A stretch of DNA of 10,856 nucleotides from NCBI GenBank assembly GCA_013140405.1, contig JABFSV010000304.1, forward strand, positions 1 through 10,856. Direction: 5' to 3'. Source of the stretch: Methyloglobulus sp. Its GTDB lineage: Bacteria > Pseudomonadota > Gammaproteobacteria > Methylococcales > Methylomonadaceae. A program made the translations under genes and the position numbers. How positions within the stretch are numbered: the first letter of the stretch is position 1; every line of letters starts with the position of its first letter. This document shows positions 2,458 to 10,856 of this stretch, piece by piece. The notes below the pieces were generated by a model. The model saw only the letters and a list, made by a program, of their open reading frames with translations. It made no database searches and was not told where the DNA came from.

Positions 2458-3841
2458 ATGCACACGACCATTAAATTTACACTACTGGCTATCTTCCTGG
2501 TATTGAGCAATACCGTTCAAAGTGACGAAGCAGCTAGTGGGATAAACTTTTCGGGTGATATTCTTTCCCGTACCAAACTCACCGGCGATTGGGGCGGCAT
2601 CCGCAATGATATGGCGGCAAAGGGCGTGACCTTGGATTTGGATGCCACCCATGTGACCCAACATGTCGCGTCCGGTGGATTTGATGGTTCGCTGTTAGAC
2701 AAATTCCCCGGCAACCGTATCAGCAGTTTGTTGCCAGGGAATAGCGAGACGGCAAGCGATGCCATGTTCAACGTGCTGTTAAAGGTGGATACTGGAAAGG
2801 CAGGGCTTTGGCCGGGCGGTTTTTTGACTGTTGCGCGGGGAAGGTCGGGTTGGCGATGCGGTAGGGCTTCGTGCCGGCGGCATCATGCCGACGAATGGCG
2901 ATGCCCTGTCGCCGAATGTACCTGGGCATTCCAACAAAGATGTACTTGCGCTCAGTGAAATGACTTATGCCCAATTTTTGTCTGAAAAGTTTGGGGTAGC
3001 ATTGGGCCTGATCAACACCGCCGATGGCGATAAAAATGAATTTGCCGGATCATTGCGTTCCCGTTCCCATTTTATGAACGCTGGGATGCGCTTTTCACCC
3101 GTGGTTTTAGGCACTGTGCCGGTAACAACATTGGGCGTGACGGCTATTTTCTTGCCCACTAAAAATATCGTTGGGACGATGGGCTTTGTTAATTCGGAAG
3201 AATCGGCGGGCTACAACCCTTTCGACCGGGATAAGGGGACGACCTTCCTGACCGAATGGCAAATCAGCCACACTATTTTTGGCGTGACCGGAAAGCAAAC
3301 GCTAGGGTTCGCCTATGGGTTCGACCGAAATAGTTTGGATTTCGGCGCTGATCCCCGTTTTCAGCTTGCGTCCCTGGTCACTACTGGGGAGACGGTCAGA
3401 ACCAACGCCGACTCCTGGGTGCTTTATTATAATGGCCATCAATATATTCAAGGTGATGCCGAGGGCGGCTGGGGGCATTTCTTGCGTGCAGGGGTATCGG
3501 ATGGCCACCCAAGCCCGGTCAAATGGAATGTCGCTTTCGGTGTGGGCGGAGTCGGTATGGGCTCTTGGCGGCCAAATGACAATTGGGGCATAGGCGGATA
3601 TGCACTGGGTGCAAGCAATGAACCTTTGTTAAACCGCTTGGGCATCAATGACGAAACCGGTTTCGAAGCCTTTTACAATATCGCTGTTGCGCCCTGGTTT
3701 CATGTAACCGCTGACGTGCAGCACGTTGATTCGGCGATAACAGGCGTAAATATTCCAGCCATAGGCCCATTGCCAGCCGTAAATATACCCGGCCCGAAAG
3801 ATGCCTGGGTGGTTGGGGTTAGGACTAACTTGAATTTTTGA
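2458..3841 (+). pseudogene. OprB-family carbohydrate-selective porin, interrupted by one frameshift
   Basis: Two overlapping frames together encode a porin of about 460 residues. The first has a signal peptide (MHTTIKFTLLAIFLVLSNTV, cleavage near VQS-DEA) and the OprB hallmark LTGDWGGIRNDMAAKGVTLD at about residues 41-60. It loses homology just after WPGGFLTV. The second frame resumes with GEGRVGDAVGLRAGG and runs through repeated barrel strands to VGVRTNLNF, whose terminal Phe is typical of outer-membrane proteins. The frames differ by one extra base near 2830-2841, which contains CGCGGGG. Deleting one G restores a continuous reading of the expected type. OprB proteins form outer-membrane channels for sugars and other small solutes. 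ATG 2458 has AGGA about 10 bases upstream. The rest of the gene is intact, so the lesion is recent or a sequencing/assembly error. Confidence 0.85.
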
Positions 3842-4384: not shown

Positions 4385-4705
4385 AACTTTTTACTCCCGG
4401 TACGGTAGGATAGACCGGATGCGAATTGTGGTGGGAAGGAGCTGCATCATTCTCTTGCAGCTTATATTCGATGGAGGATTCATTCTAATGCTAACCATGA
4501 AGAATTTAACCGATGCCCGTAAAAATTAATGCCGGAGTTTTATTGAATAACTTATGTTACGTAGTTGAGGGATATCCTCTTCATGCCGCGCCGAGTACTA
4601 GCGTTTTTATCAGGAATAGCCCGAAGGGGGGGCGGCAAGGAAAGTATATAATGCACCGATCACTACGCGTAAGTTTGGCAATTGTCCACCTTTAAGGAGA
4701 AGGTC
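4385..4705. other. Gene-free interval before the sulfatase
   Basis: No convincing gene lies in these 321 bases. A 7-bp-arm hairpin, AGCTGCA (4440-4446) with TGCAGCT (4456-4462), lacks a uridine tract. A GGAGGA followed by ATG at 4488 opens only a 13-codon frame. TATAAT at 4647-4652 is a perfect -10 hexamer about 55 bases before the sulfatase start, but no good -35 is visible at 16-18 bp, so promoter assignment is weak. The open frame at 4513-4695 has no ribosome binding site or recognisable protein. Confidence 0.45.
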
Positions 4706-6325
4706 ATGAAAACCAACCACCACTTTAGAATCGCCGGTCATGTGTTATTTATGACCATGCTGTGCGTACCCTATGCGTTTTCAAAAAGTGCCGGCCCCGC
4801 CAAAGATCCATTTGACGAGACCGTACACGTCGCGGATTATTTGGAACCGGCGATTCCTCGACCACAACAGGCGAAGATCGCGAGCGACAAACTCGCCGCG
4901 CTCCGCGCCAAGACGGGACGTGCGCCCAACATCCTCATCATCGTCGTGGACGACATGGGATGGGGCGATCCGGGCGTTTACGGCGGCGGCGTCGCCATCG
5001 GCGCGCCGACCCCGAACATTGATCGCCTCGCTCACGACGGGCTGAAGCTCACGTCCTTTTACGCGCAGTCGCTCTGCACTCCCTCCCGCGCGGCGCTGAT
5101 GACGGGCCGTATGCCTCCGCGCAGCGGACTCACGCGTCCGTTGCTGACCGGTGAAAATCCGAAGGTGAATCCCTGGGCGGACGAGGACACGACGGCCAAG
5201 CTATTGTCCGCCGCCGGTTATCGCACGGCGCTCGCCGGCAAGTGGCATCTCGGCGAGATGGAGGGTACGCAGCCGCATCAGGTCGGTTACGATGAGTATT
5301 TTGGAATTCTCTCCGTGGTGTCGGAGATGTCGCAGGTGATTGATGGCAACCTCTACCCTGACTTGGTGAACAAACCGGCGCGCATGGCGGCGGTGAGCAA
5401 GCTCGTCCTGCCGGAAATCACGGCTGGCGAAAAGGGCAAGCCCACACACGTCGTGCAGCATCTCAAAACCACCGAGGAATTGGGCATGCTCGACCAGCAG
5501 TTCGCTGATTTCTCGGACAAATTCATCCGAAGCAGCGTGACACAGAAGAAGCCGTTCTATCTGGTTCATGCCTTCTCGCGTCTGCACAACGACAACTATC
5601 CCGCACCCGGCTACGCTGGCAAAAGCCCCGCCGCATTTCCTTACAAGGACGCGGTCGTGGAAGTGGATGACATCGTCGGTCGTTTGATGAAGACGCTCAA
5701 GGAAACCGGGCAGTTGGAAAACACGCTCGTGTTCTTCACGTCGGACAATGGTGCGAACGAAGATGTCTGGCCTGACACGGGCTATCAACCGTGGCGCGGC
5801 GGCAAGGGCACGACCTGGGAAGGCGGCGTGCGCGTTCCCGGTATCGCTTACTGGCCCGGGATGATCGCAGCCGGGCGCGAGAGCGATGGTCTCTTCGACA
5901 TCACGGATCTCTTCAATACCTCACTTGCCGTTGCAGGGGAGACGAAGCGTATTGAAAAGACCCGGTACATTGATGGCATCGACCAATCCGGCTTTTTGCT
6001 GGCGGATGACGGCAAGTCCGCCCGCCAGACGGTTTTCTTCTATTCCGAAACCTCGCTCACGGCGATGCGCTGGCAGGAATATAAGATTCACCTCAAGGTC
6101 TTCCAGACGGATGTCGCGCGTCAGAACATTGACGAGTCCACCCTCGTGCCGACAGGCACGACACCGTGGGTGTTCAACCTCTACACCGATCCGAAGGAGC
6201 AACGGAGTTCCGGCCACCGCTACTTTGAATGGGGGTTGCCGCGAGTTGTTGGTTTCATCAAGGCTCACGCCGGAACTTACCAGAAGTATCCCATGAAGAA
6301 CCTTGGACTCGATGTGCCGAGCTAA
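4706..6325 (+). CDS. Secreted type I (formylglycine-dependent) arylsulfatase-family sulfatase
   Basis: The gene encodes 539 residues from ATG 4706, which has AAGGAGA five bases upstream. Sulfatases of this family hydrolyse sulfate esters using a formylglycine made from an active-site Cys or Ser. A signal peptide (core GHVLFMTMLC, cleavage near AFS) points to periplasm or outside. Visible family motifs: PNILIIVVDDMGWGD at 75-88 with metal-binding Asp82/Asp83; C-T-P-S-R at 124-128 inside SLCTPSRAALMTGR, so Cys124 is the modified residue; GKWHLG at 178-183; FSRLH at 290-294, which I associate with an SRMH/SRLH arylsulfatase subgroup; TSDNGA at 345-350 with metal-ligand Asp347/Asn348; and GGKGTTWEGGVRVPG with Lys367. 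Length is normal and all key residues are present. The substrate cannot be read. The gene is visibly richer in G/C-ending codons than its neighbours, which suggests transfer. The FGE-family gene downstream is a likely activator. Confidence 0.95.
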   Translation: MKTNHHFRIAGHVLFMTMLCVPYAFSKSAGPAKDPFDETVHVADYLEPAIPRPQQAKIASDKLAALRAKTGRAPNILIIVVDDMGWGDPGVYGGGVAIGAPTPNIDRLAHDGLKLTSFYAQSLCTPSRAALMTGRMPPRSGLTRPLLTGENPKVNPWADEDTTAKLLSAAGYRTALAGKWHLGEMEGTQPHQVGYDEYFGILSVVSEMSQVIDGNLYPDLVNKPARMAAVSKLVLPEITAGEKGKPTHVVQHLKTTEELGMLDQQFADFSDKFIRSSVTQKKPFYLVHAFSRLHNDNYPAPGYAGKSPAAFPYKDAVVEVDDIVGRLMKTLKETGQLENTLVFFTSDNGANEDVWPDTGYQPWRGGKGTTWEGGVRVPGIAYWPGMIAAGRESDGLFDITDLFNTSLAVAGETKRIEKTRYIDGIDQSGFLLADDGKSARQTVFFYSETSLTAMRWQEYKIHLKVFQTDVARQNIDESTLVPTGTTPWVFNLYTDPKEQRSSGHRYFEWGLPRVVGFIKAHAGTYQKYPMKNLGLDVPS

Positions 6326-7743: not shown

Positions 7744-7850
7744 GATTTCAGTTGGTTATCCTTTATCTTAGAACGTGTTTTAGAAAGCTTCGACATAAAA
7801 TCTAGGATGCCCTCAACGAAAGCAGTATCGGACAATAAAAATTAGAATGG

Positions 7851-7976
7851 CACTGAAGGAGTACATGGAAGCGTAACGCTAGTGGAGCGGTGTACGACGA
7901 CCCCCGCGTAGCCGTAGGGGCCGGGCGTGTTGACGGAGTTGGAGCGCGAGCGGAAGCGTAGTCAACATGCAAGGCC
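7851..7976 (+). repeat. 126-bp direct repeat, copy 1 (5' part of the structured element)
   Basis: Positions 7854-7976 are identical base for base to 10734-10856. Including the flanking CAC/CAT the match extends to 7851 with one difference. The sequence upstream of 7851 and 10731 is unrelated, so the left boundary is sharp. The right boundary cannot be seen because the window ends inside copy 2. The sequence is GC-rich against AT-rich flanks and contains short internal echoes of GCGTA. Confidence 0.95.
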
Positions 7977-8152
7977 ATCCGACACGGCGTCAAGTCATTT
8001 GGGCAGTCGTGATGCACAGCGTACCGAAGGGGAGTTGTGCATCGTGACGAACCGAGGACGAACGCGGGCAGCCGAAGGCATTAATCGCCACGTGATTTTT
8101 CGCCGCTAAAATCGGATGGATCCCATTTTAGCTTTCGCGAAAAATAGTGGCG
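7854..8152 (+). ncRNA. Candidate structured RNA or non-coding mobile element of about 300 nt
   Basis: This interval has no convincing protein but folds into successive stems. GTACA (7861-7865) pairs with TGTAC (7891-7895) around a small AGCG/CGCT hairpin. CCCC near 7902 pairs with GGGG (7917-7920). GCGTGTTGAC (7925-7934) pairs with GTCAACATGC (7961-7970) through one G-U pair. GTCGTGATGCACA (8006-8018) pairs with TGTGCATCGTGAC (8036-8048) through two G-U pairs. A final nested hairpin spans 8086-8152 with arms CGCCAC/GTGGCG, ATTTTTCGC/GCGAAAAAT and GCTAAAAT/ATTTTAGC. G-U pairs within otherwise perfect stems favour folding as RNA. The 5' 123 bases recur at 10734. I could not match it to a named RNA family. 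The orientation and the 3' limit are inferred. It could equally be the palindromic body of a transposon-related element. Confidence 0.4.
8086..8152. repeat. 67-nt nested hairpin at the right end of the element
   Basis: Three consecutive perfect arms stack: CGCCAC (8086-8091) with GTGGCG (8147-8152), ATTTTTCGC (8095-8103) with GCGAAAAAT (8137-8145), and GCTAAAAT (8105-8112) with ATTTTAGC (8125-8132). Small asymmetric bulges separate them and the loop is 12 nt. The hairpin ends 76 bp before the FGE ATG. It could terminate transcription coming from the element, or mark a transposon end. Confidence 0.7.
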
Positions 8153-8159
8153 CGCTTAC

Positions 8160-8228
8160 AATAAATCGTTAGTTTATATACCACTGATTTGCATCCTCAT
8201 TATTCCTTGTTGGGTTCAAGGCAAGCCA
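8160..8228 (+). other. In-frame signal-peptide-like extension of the FGE gene without an ordinary start codon
   Basis: The frame upstream of ATG 8229 is open and, from 8160, reads NKSLVYIPLIC, then ILIIPCWVQG-KP, joining directly to MQPTET. That is a good Sec or lipoprotein-like leader: a short basic start, a hydrophobic core, and VQG before the mature chain. No ATG, GTG or TTG precedes NKS in frame nearby; the codon before AAT is TAC. The 67-nt hairpin of the structured element ends at 8152. I infer that the original start was displaced when the element inserted, or that a rare start codon (ATA 8178, CTG 8184 or ATT 8187) is used. Confidence 0.5.
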
Positions 8229-9287
8229 ATGCAGCCCACCGAAACCGGAGTTCCAGCGGTGAAGGAAATGATTTCCGCCCAAATAGAGCCAGGATTTGCA
8301 GCGACCGCGCCCAATCCATCGCCTCCCCCTGTTGCTGCCCCGAAAGAGATGGCATGGATACCCGGCGGCGAATTTTCCATGGGCGCAGCCGAACCCAAAG
8401 GCATCGACAACAATCGCGTCGGTATGCAAGCCACGCTGGATTCACGTCCGATACACCGGGTTTATGTTGACGGCTTCTGGATGGATCGCACGGAAGTCAC
8501 TAACGCCCAATACGAACGCTTCGTAACGGCTTCAAAATATGTCACCGTTGCGGAAAAAGCGCCGAGCGCGGAAGAATTCCCCAACGCACCGGTCGATATG
8601 CTGGTGCCCGGTTCGGTCGTGTTTACCCCGCCGGACAAACCGGTACAGCTTAATGACCATTTTCAATGGTGGGCCTGGGTAAAAGATGCCGATTGGCGGC
8701 ATCCCGAAGGCCCCAATAGCTCGATAAAGGAGCGCGATAACCATCCTGTAGTGCATGTTGCCTATCCCGATGCGGAAGCGTATTGCAAGTGGGCAGAAAA
8801 ACGGCTGCCCACGGAAGCGGAATGGGAATTTGCGGCGCGCGGCGGGCTGGCCGGTAAGGCATATCCCTGGGGCGATGACTTTATGCTGGACGGAAAGCGG
8901 ATGACCAACAGCTTCCAGGGCAGTTTCCCGAACCGCAACAGCAGCGAAGACGGCTATTTATCCACAGCGCCCATCGCCCAGTTCCCGCCCAATGGTTATG
9001 GCTTGTACGATGTGGCCGGAAATGTTTGGGAATGGACGAGCGATTGGTACCGCCCGGATTATTATGGTCAGCTTGCCCAAGCGGGAGGCATCGCCAAAAA
9101 CCCCACGGGGCCGGAAAGCGCGTGGGATCCTGATGAACCGGGGCAAGCGAAAAAAGCCCATCGCGGCGGTTCGTTCTTATGCACGGAACAATATTGTTCA
9201 CGCTATGGCGTAGGGACACGGGGCAAAGGCGAAATCAATACCGGTACGAACCATTTGGGATTCCGCTGCGTGAAGCCTATTAAATAA
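8229..9287 (+). CDS. Formylglycine-generating enzyme (FGE/SUMF1) family protein
   Basis: From ATG 8229 the gene encodes 352 residues. FGE enzymes oxidise the Cys of the sulfatase C-x-P-x-R motif to formylglycine with copper and oxygen. The family start is AWIPGGEFSMGA at 42-53, followed by VYVDGFWMDRTEVTNAQYERF (split here: VYVDGFWMD at 78-86, TEVTNAQYERF at 88-98), HPVVHVAYPDAEAYCKW at about 172-188, KRLPTEAEWEFAARGG at 191-206, and GLYDVAGNVWEWTSDWY at 258-274. The active-site block is HRGGSFLCTEQYC at 311-323, with Cys318 and Cys323 matching the catalytic pair of true FGEs and Ser315 also present; then GFRC closes the fold. It is thus more likely a real FGE than one of the many cysteine-less homologues. 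An in-frame signal-peptide-like stretch precedes the ATG but lacks a normal start, so the protein as started here is cytoplasmic or its annotation is incomplete. The likely client is the sulfatase at 4706. Confidence 0.9.
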   Translation: MQPTETGVPAVKEMISAQIEPGFAATAPNPSPPPVAAPKEMAWIPGGEFSMGAAEPKGIDNNRVGMQATLDSRPIHRVYVDGFWMDRTEVTNAQYERFVTASKYVTVAEKAPSAEEFPNAPVDMLVPGSVVFTPPDKPVQLNDHFQWWAWVKDADWRHPEGPNSSIKERDNHPVVHVAYPDAEAYCKWAEKRLPTEAEWEFAARGGLAGKAYPWGDDFMLDGKRMTNSFQGSFPNRNSSEDGYLSTAPIAQFPPNGYGLYDVAGNVWEWTSDWYRPDYYGQLAQAGGIAKNPTGPESAWDPDEPGQAKKAHRGGSFLCTEQYCSRYGVGTRGKGEINTGTNHLGFRCVKPIK

Positions 9288-9646: not shown

Positions 9647-9669
9647 CTCATAAAAGCAATCATTCGACC

Positions 9670-9721
9670 GTCTGGTTTGGAGAAGGTTGATCCAGGACTG
9701 CGAACTACCGTTTTGGGTCGA
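9670..9721 (+). repeat. Diverged 52-bp direct repeat, copy B
   Basis: This copy aligns without gaps to 42-93 at about 42 of 52 positions and has the same orientation. It follows the frameshifted secreted ORF and is not part of the exact 126-bp repeat pair. Confidence 0.55.
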
Positions 9722-9879: not shown

Positions 9880-10161
9880 ATGCGCACCACAAAACAACTG
9901 AGCATCATTCTTCCTACAGAAATGGCCGATGTTATAAAAGCCAAGGTCGCCACTGGAGAATATGCAACAGAAAGTGAAGTGATTCGGGATGGATTACGGG
10001 TACTTATGGCTCGTGACCGAGCAGTAGAGAATTGGCTGTTGGAACAAGTCGTACCAGCCTATGATGCCCTGAAAGCCGATCCCACAAGGGCTGTCTCAGT
10101 GGAACAGGTTCGAGCTAGACTTGCTGCTGAACATAAGGCTGCCACCACCAAAAAAGTTTGA
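9880..10161 (+). CDS. ParD-family antitoxin (ribbon-helix-helix)
   Basis: The gene encodes 93 residues. The N-terminal half is a ribbon-helix-helix DNA-binding domain: the strand QLSIILPTEM (6-15), helix ADVIKAKVATGEY, the turn ATESEVIRDGLRVLM (29-43). The 'G-x-Y-x-T-x-S-E-V-I-R-D-G-L-R' pattern is diagnostic of the ParD family. The charged C-terminus (about 55-93) should wrap the toxin and neutralise it. ATG 9880 is preceded by only a weak purine stretch. The TGA overlaps the toxin start, so the two are translated together. The complex is expected to bind the palindrome at 9844-9858. The pair stabilises DNA that carries it, or acts in stress response; here it lies between the two exact direct repeats. 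Confidence 0.9.
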   Translation: MRTTKQLSIILPTEMADVIKAKVATGEYATESEVIRDGLRVLMARDRAVENWLLEQVVPAYDALKADPTRAVSVEQVRARLAAEHKAATTKKV

Positions 10162-10475
10162 AAACATACACGGTCATTTTCTCGCCAGAGGCAGAAGAAC
10201 AACTGGCATCGCTTTATCGGTATCTCGCTTTTGAAGCATCACCAAAGATTGCAGAAAAGTATACCGATGCCGTTGTTAGCTATTGTGAAAGATTAACAAC
10301 ATTTCCTCATCGTGGAAACTGCCGGGATGAAATACGTCCTGGACTTCGGATAACAAATTACAAAAGACGAACCGCGATTGCTTTTGAAGTAGGTGAAGAA
10401 TTTGTATCAATTATCGGAATCTTTCATGGAGGCCAAGACTATGAAACGATTCTTCAGTCAGAAAACAATGATTAG
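10158..10475 (+). CDS. ParE/RelE-superfamily toxin
   Basis: The gene encodes 105 residues from a TTG start that overlaps the antitoxin stop (TTGA at 10158-10161), a typical coupling in which the reinitiating ribosome needs no separate binding site. The fold signature is complete: VIFSPEAEEQLASLYRYL at about 6-23, KYTDAVVSYCERLTTFPHRG at about 35-54, then RPGLRITNYKRRTAIAF, and FVSIIGIFHGGQDYETIL near the end. The pattern 'FPxRG...RPGLR...R..IAF.V....V.IxGIFHGGQDYE' places it in the ParE branch, whose characterised members poison DNA gyrase, rather than with mRNA-cleaving RelE. Target assignment is by family only. Both genes of the pair appear intact. Confidence 0.9.
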   Translation: MKTYTVIFSPEAEEQLASLYRYLAFEASPKIAEKYTDAVVSYCERLTTFPHRGNCRDEIRPGLRITNYKRRTAIAFEVGEEFVSIIGIFHGGQDYETILQSENND

Positions 10476-10730: not shown

Positions 10731-10856
10731 CATTGAAGGAGTACATGGAAGCGTAACGCTAGTGGAGCGGTGTACGACGACCCCCGCGTAGCCGTAGGGG
10801 CCGGGCGTGTTGACGGAGTTGGAGCGCGAGCGGAAGCGTAGTCAACATGCAAGGCC
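10731..10856 (+). repeat. 126-bp direct repeat, copy 2, cut by the window end
   Basis: Positions 10734-10856 are identical to 7854-7976 and in the same orientation. The match ends only because the window does. All stems of the 5' part (GTACA/TGTAC, CCCC/GGGG, GCGTGTTGAC/GTCAACATGC) are present. Whether the 3' part and terminal hairpin follow is unknown. Confidence 0.95.

Follow-up and report, generated by a model that had tools for sequence, protein, structure and literature searches.

A scarless, protein-free mobile element with a conserved RNA-like fold in Methyloglobulus and other Gammaproteobacteria

Introduction

What is a strongly folded stretch of DNA that recurs within a genome and encodes no credible protein, and by what means would it spread? 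The question is raised by a contig of 10,856 nt from Methyloglobulus sp. (JABFSV010000304.1, assembly GCA_013140405.1), the whole of which was analysed here and is referred to as the window. The initial annotation of the window proposed a multicopy folded element without a protein, either a non-autonomous mobile element or a new noncoding RNA, and the present analysis supports that proposal. No description of such an element was met with among the titles and abstract openings returned by literature searches on Methylomonas, M. buryatense, Methylococcus, MITEs, REPs and HEARO.

Results

Copies and limits of the element in the window

It was found that 126 nt are shared at 99% identity by two copies in the window whose starts lie 2880 nt apart, and that the identical stretch measures 123 nt, exactly as first described (123 exact bases occurring twice, 2,880 bp apart). 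The complete copy is 304 nt long (7855-8158, + strand), as defined by ends common to copies at unrelated sites and by empty sites. These limits go slightly beyond those given earlier, 7854-8152; the sharp left edge noted at the time is matched by the identical ends of copies at unrelated sites. The second copy (10735-10856, + strand; repeat comparison and own-genome matches) is ended by the end of the contig and, since the window is a whole contig (G000:C304) that stops inside this copy, its shorter length means nothing. The only reading frames over the element are of 71 and 60 codons, neither of which is credible, in keeping with the earlier statement that it lacks a credible open reading frame (ORF). 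The repeat is a discrete mobile element, real and larger than first noted.

Distribution

A DNA search of the window's own genome returned 10 matches, one of them of only 71 nt at 77% identity. In five cases the match runs up to a contig end, which is expected for a multicopy repeat in a draft assembly, and two further places (contigs C500 and C257) were recovered with a covariance model of the element core (model R1, 99 positions). Among relatives, at least one match to the DNA query was present in 30 of 101 genomes, own genome counted, with up to seven candidates scored per genome, so that per-genome copy numbers are lower bounds. The same applies to a sample of the class, in which stricter filters were used and up to 11 candidates were scored per genome; here the covariance model (E up to 1e-4) matched 24 of 369 genomes, belonging to 21 of 272 genera, own genome again included. 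In a phylum-level sample the single match out of 398 was the window's own genome, and as the genomes listed there are of the same class, this figure says little of other classes.

Screening with the exact core pattern identified Methylotuvimicrobium buryatense 5G (26 copies), Methylomonas fluvii, M. koyamae, M. methanica and Methylomicrobium sp. wino1 as hosts, together with metagenome-assembled genomes (MAGs) labelled Methylicorpusculum, Methylomicrobium, Methylococcaceae and Gammaproteobacteria; one further MAG with this pattern is labelled Pyrinomonadaceae. Of these hosts, M. buryatense is a methanotroph used in the laboratory. A 19-base core pattern matched five times on one viral contig, and the window's own copy had no match in the plasmid and phage collections searched. 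The complete 3.45-Mb genome G134 holds at least 41 copies at 97-100% identity; this count comes from 40 of 363 first-look candidates that were scored, and the true number is probably higher. Fragments truncated at the 5' end and others truncated at the 3' end both occur among the relatives' matches. Two truncated copies (L111 and L115, from G030 and G054) stop just after the conserved core motif AGTCATT, perhaps by chance or perhaps as a short form. The element, of about 280-310 bp and without a protein of its own, is spread through part of the Gammaproteobacteria. Among methanotrophs and some others of the class it is a common repeat with strong structure.

Ends, target and mode of insertion

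The expectation that many copies would share both ends was borne out. Copies at unrelated sites begin with GAAGGAG or CGCTG and end in a hairpin, after which come GCGCGCT and two bases that differ by subfamily. The 38 right ends compared show T or G, then A or G, and then no preference; the final four bases of the main subfamilies are CTTG, CTTA, CTGG and CTGA, with C four from the end. In the window the tail after the hairpin is CGCTTA (8153-8158, + strand), the last four bases being C-T-T-A.

The base four positions before the first element base was C at 70 of 73 sites and T at the other three, while position -5 was C at one site and position -1 was T at 41. The 73 sites are distinct, have ends fitting the patterns and are flanked by 500 nt on each side, and all remaining copies were dropped; because the ends were chosen without use of position -4, the result is not circular. 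The same base was C at 22 of 23 sites in G134, giving 92 of 96 for both sets pooled, and in the window this target C lies at 7851 (+ strand).

When 49 pairs of joined flanks were compared against the collected loci, three gave an unoccupied homologue, in each case with no duplication or loss of target bases: L044 against L055 (another genome), L069 against L088 and L119, and L071 against the tandem repeat that surrounds it. A copy inside an IS200-type tnpA gene (L087) was judged by eye to be scarless too. The element inserts without a scar and without target duplication, 3' of C-N-N-N, a motif that often ends in T. Copies also interrupt genes on a prophage-like contig, and others lie in intergenic DNA (reading frames, by eye). 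Among 30 Y1 transposase loci compared, two element insertions in IS200-type tnpA genes were seen, at L103 (1211-1487) and at L087. At L223 (IMGVR_UViG_2781126804_000001), unlike the scarless sites, about 330 bp of one gene seems to occur twice, once on each side of an element copy, which could be a rearrangement or an assembly fault.

Open frames of 120 codons or more contain 24 of the 73 insertions (10 sense, 14 antisense), compared with 705 of 1180 positions picked at random from flanks of at least 1900 nt. Selection seems to act against insertion within genes whichever way the element points, and this speaks against self-splicing. In five named hosts the sense strand was on the locally G-rich strand for 32 of 48 copies (p = 0.03; 47 of the 64 exact-core loci were used), a weak bias, though one that points the way insertion into the lagging-strand template would predict. 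At many loci, long but spurious frames cross the element and may have been annotated as hypothetical proteins or fused to neighbouring genes.

Fold and covariation

The predicted fold of 7848-8165 has a free energy of -133.8 kcal/mol (z = -4.74), which none of 100 shuffled sequences equalled. In an alignment of 20 core sequences, 97.6% of cells were paired and 16 of 21 pairs showed a double change, a result reached by 0 of 500 shuffles; the same structure slid along the alignment gave 30-49% pairing. At full length, with 28 sequences from several families and an RNAalifold structure, 91.4% of cells were paired and 29 of 37 pairs were double-changed (0 of 500 shuffles), compared with 33-51% pairing for slid versions. 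The shuffle test is inflated by related sequences and a structure derived from an alignment tends to beat its slid versions, and the stronger point in favour of the fold is the many distinct pair types in helices P1, P4 and P7.

The covariation-scored fold is made up of P1, P2, P4 with its continuation, and P7 with its foot, all on the + strand. P1 (7903-8068; 7903-7909 paired with 8062-8068) is the outer helix that would close a multibranch core, with five of its seven pairs double-changed and 92.7% pairing. Inside it lie P2 (7911-7988; 7911-7915 with 7984-7988), with four of five pairs double-changed and 95.0% pairing, and P4 (7925-7970; 7925-7933 with 7962-7970), with seven of nine pairs double-changed and a G-U pair kept in 22 of the 28 sequences. 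P5 (8006-8048) is a stem-loop predicted in the minimum free energy (MFE) structure, as is its closing GUC/GAC pairing (7994-7996 with 8057-8059), and it differs between subfamilies in both sequence and length. Of the stems put forward earlier, those at 7925-7970 and 8006-8048 are each present in the fold; pair-by-pair scoring covered the former and showed its compensatory changes among the 28 relatives.

The core is flanked by further hairpins on the same strand. At the 5' side, P0 (7861-7895; 7861-7866 with 7890-7895) forms at least 6 bp in 19 of 28 sequences with differing letters, compared with 17% of shuffles, its sequence varying between subfamilies. By eye, roughly three in four of the 28 aligned relatives have a GCC-GAA-GGC mini-hairpin, P6 (8071-8079). 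The 67-nt nested end hairpin described at the outset is P7 (8086-8152), which appears in the MFE structure and has a foot helix with covariation (four of five pairs double-changed, 92.0% paired).

Of two conserved G-U pairs, one is retained in 22 and the other in 19 of the 28 sequences. On the other strand these would be A-C mismatches, so it is the + strand that folds, as RNA or as single-stranded DNA. Judged by the comparison of sequences, compensatory changes beyond those of the controls maintain a multibranched fold on the + strand, as would be looked for in a functional RNA. The element combines two traits that usually occur separately: it inserts without a scar at a target that is almost free, and an RNA-like architecture is deeply conserved over its whole length.

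Search for an autonomous copy or a mobiliser

Thirteen larger loci were collected, three with complete or nearly complete element copies and ten with fragments only. No shared mobility gene was seen among the ORFs of nine of these larger loci or in the sequence around a tenth. In an all-against-all comparison of ORFs from the loci, leaving aside those fetched by the Y1 or IscB searches, the largest clusters were spurious frames through the element and the smaller ones general families (by eye); a cluster resembling a coupling protein also proved on checking to be a spurious frame of this kind. Every candidate mobiliser family tested went undetected in some carriers. Reverse transcriptase (PF00078) was present in 13 of 19 carriers and missing from six, among them the complete G134 with its at least 41 copies.

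A Y1 transposase gene was present in all 12 carriers from the window's order. Across the class sample, PF01797 was found in 19 of 24 element-positive genomes and in 241 of 369 overall, which is no clear enrichment. G428, a draft genome 98% complete with at least 11 element copies, gave no Y1 match even at E up to 10; the other four Y1-negative carriers comprise three without a match and G332, with two weak ones (E 0.18 and 0.20). No transposase was seen inside any of the element copies examined.

According to passages in PMC6006769 and PMC8266576, Y1 elements move in a strand-specific, single-stranded manner and have hairpin ends, and their guides choose the tetranucleotide flanking LE and the final tetranucleotide of RE. 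Like IS200/IS605 elements and their non-autonomous derivatives, the present element has subterminal hairpins at both ends on one strand, a strand-specific fold, insertion on the 3' side of a short flanking tetranucleotide with no duplication of the target, and a terminal tetranucleotide at its right end. It differs from them in lacking tnpA in the copies examined, in a target of C-N-N-N rather than a fixed tetranucleotide, in a conserved multibranch core of about 200 nt, and in having a carrier, G428, with no Y1 gene detected to act in trans. No consistent pairing between the last four bases and the bases before the 3' hairpin was found by eye.

The family of REP, BIME and REPIN sequences mobilised by RAYT (TnpA-REP) resembles the element in its dozens of palindromic, mostly intergenic copies in Gammaproteobacteria and in having no transposase of its own, but such sequences measure 20-50 nt compared with 304 nt and have a GTAG foot that the element lacks. 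This candidate was set aside, the RAYT genes at six carrier loci being flanked by other palindromes (by eye). At one of the six, L102 (G005), a complete element copy (812-1117) lies about 330 bp from a RAYT-like gene (1447-1974). A RAYT-like Y1 gene of the HYH type is situated directly beside an integron integrase at L263 (6066-8096, G017), and a similar close pair occurs in G063.

Integron integrases

Integron integrase (TIGR02249) was found above the cut-off in 12 of 19 carriers and in none of 14 control genomes. Strong broken or partial matches occurred in three more carriers (G134, G054 and G365), and no match above the cut-off was obtained in G027, G078 (a single contig), G332 or G428. 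When 17 regions around integrase matches were inspected, element cores were present only in those of G134. Seven and nine core matches lie in two 19.5-kb stretches of that genome, the first (L234, L265) being the integron region and the second (L268) another region; within the first is a chromosomal integron, the integrase gene of which is interrupted by stop codons.

The element resembles integron attC sites and cassettes in that these, too, involve recombination of folded single strands. As an attC site it was rejected: nine of 10 elements lack both GTTRRRY and RYYYAAC and the tenth has two GTTRRRY motifs only. The IntI junction is G/TT, unlike the C-N-N-N junction of the element, and the copies near integrase genes in G134 are placed as scattered insertions.

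Known RNA families and RNA-guided systems

An Rfam covariance search over the element at E up to 1 gave no match in the window, in seven other loci or in eight diverse loci from the class; the few Rfam matches in the window and seven-locus searches lie outside the element. An omega-RNA/HEARO-like identity had been suggested initially, and did not hold up: like HEARO (treated in passages of PMC9755519) and the IscB omega-RNA, the element is a large structured RNA-like unit linked to mobile DNA, but no RF02033 match at E up to 1 was found in the window and the 15 relatives' loci. The IscB/IsrB domain RRXRR (PF14239) was found in only two of 12 carriers, the 10 without it including G017, G043, G063 and G078, assemblies of one or two contigs each. 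A TnpB omega-RNA unit fared similarly, with PF07282 in four of 19 carriers and not found in 15, among them G017, G043, G063 and G134. Group I and group II introns without an ORF share scarless insertion and a large conserved fold with the element, but no Rfam intron match was obtained and the genic copies are not biased towards the sense orientation.

Discussion

Scarless insertion by a short motif on one side only, hairpins at both ends of one strand and, in the main subfamilies, a C four positions before both junctions together resemble the IS200/IS605 scheme and make mobilisation in trans the most likely reading. We consider there to be about an even chance that this is a non-autonomous, single-strand-type mobile element, mobilised in trans, with a conserved structured core that acts as RNA. 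An enzyme supplied in trans would cut and join one DNA strand next to the hairpins, as IS200/IS605 (Y1, HUH) transposases do, and the two end hairpins would be its recognition sites. The conserved core between them may be transcribed and work as RNA, either for the host or in mobilisation, where it would bind the mobiliser or guide the join. The main facts against mobilisation in trans are that no Y1 gene was detected in G428 and that no autonomous copy is among those examined; moreover, a simple MITE needs only its ends and not 200 nt of conserved core.

The other explanations each account for part of these observations. A folded RNA that inserts itself, or does so by way of an RNA-using enzyme (a new intron-like ribozyme or a reverse-transcription route), would suit scarless insertion at a short motif, an RNA-like fold conserved over the length of the element and the failure to detect any one of the tested protein families in every carrier examined. 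It is nevertheless unlikely, given the depletion of genic insertions in both orientations with no sign of splicing out, the six carriers without PF00078, and the occurrence of fragments truncated at either end. Movement by enzymes that act on folded single strands, either integron integrases or Xer recombinases, is suggested by the distribution of integrases among carriers and controls and by the density of copies beside the G134 integron. A passage of PMC9024848 places integrons mainly in gamma-Proteobacteria in any case, and with four carriers lacking an integrase above the cut-off, cores near an integrase in one genome alone, and neither paired attC core motifs nor a matching junction, this explanation is improbable.

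A stand-alone omega-RNA-type guide RNA of IscB, IsrB or TnpB elements might also give a structured RNA-like unit in many copies, with ends that look like those of a transposon and insertion that resembles that of IS200/IS605; with no HEARO match and with PF14239 and PF07282 not found in most carriers tested, this failed for these nucleases and is now highly improbable. Least credible of all is a host-useful intergenic RNA or terminator-like repeat that was spread by recombination and is not truly mobile. Depletion within genes and the strong 3' hairpin would fit it, but exact ends and a shared target base at unrelated sites, insertions within IS and prophage genes (by eye) and dozens of nearly identical copies in one genome all speak against it, and the empty sites refute it unless they are errors.

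It is possible, if rather doubtful, that the element represents a new class of mobile element whose scarless spread depends on its own conserved, multibranched RNA of about 300 nt, which encodes no protein. Its partner would then be either the RNA itself or something that belongs to none of the known Y1, reverse transcriptase, TnpB, IscB and integron-integrase families. The mobiliser, once found, would either extend single-strand transposition to a new, RNA-bearing kind of passenger or reveal a new route of DNA insertion.

Other features of the window

A second direct repeat, of 64 nt at 78% identity, occupies positions 30-93 and 9658-9721, near both contig ends. Two ORFs that lie close together presumably encode a sulfatase-like protein (4682-6325) and a formylglycine-generating-enzyme-like protein (8229-9287), and we take 9880-10475 to be a ParD/ParE-like toxin-antitoxin pair. 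The reading frame at 2458-3841, which we assume to be porin-like, looks split by a frameshift into two overlapping ORFs.
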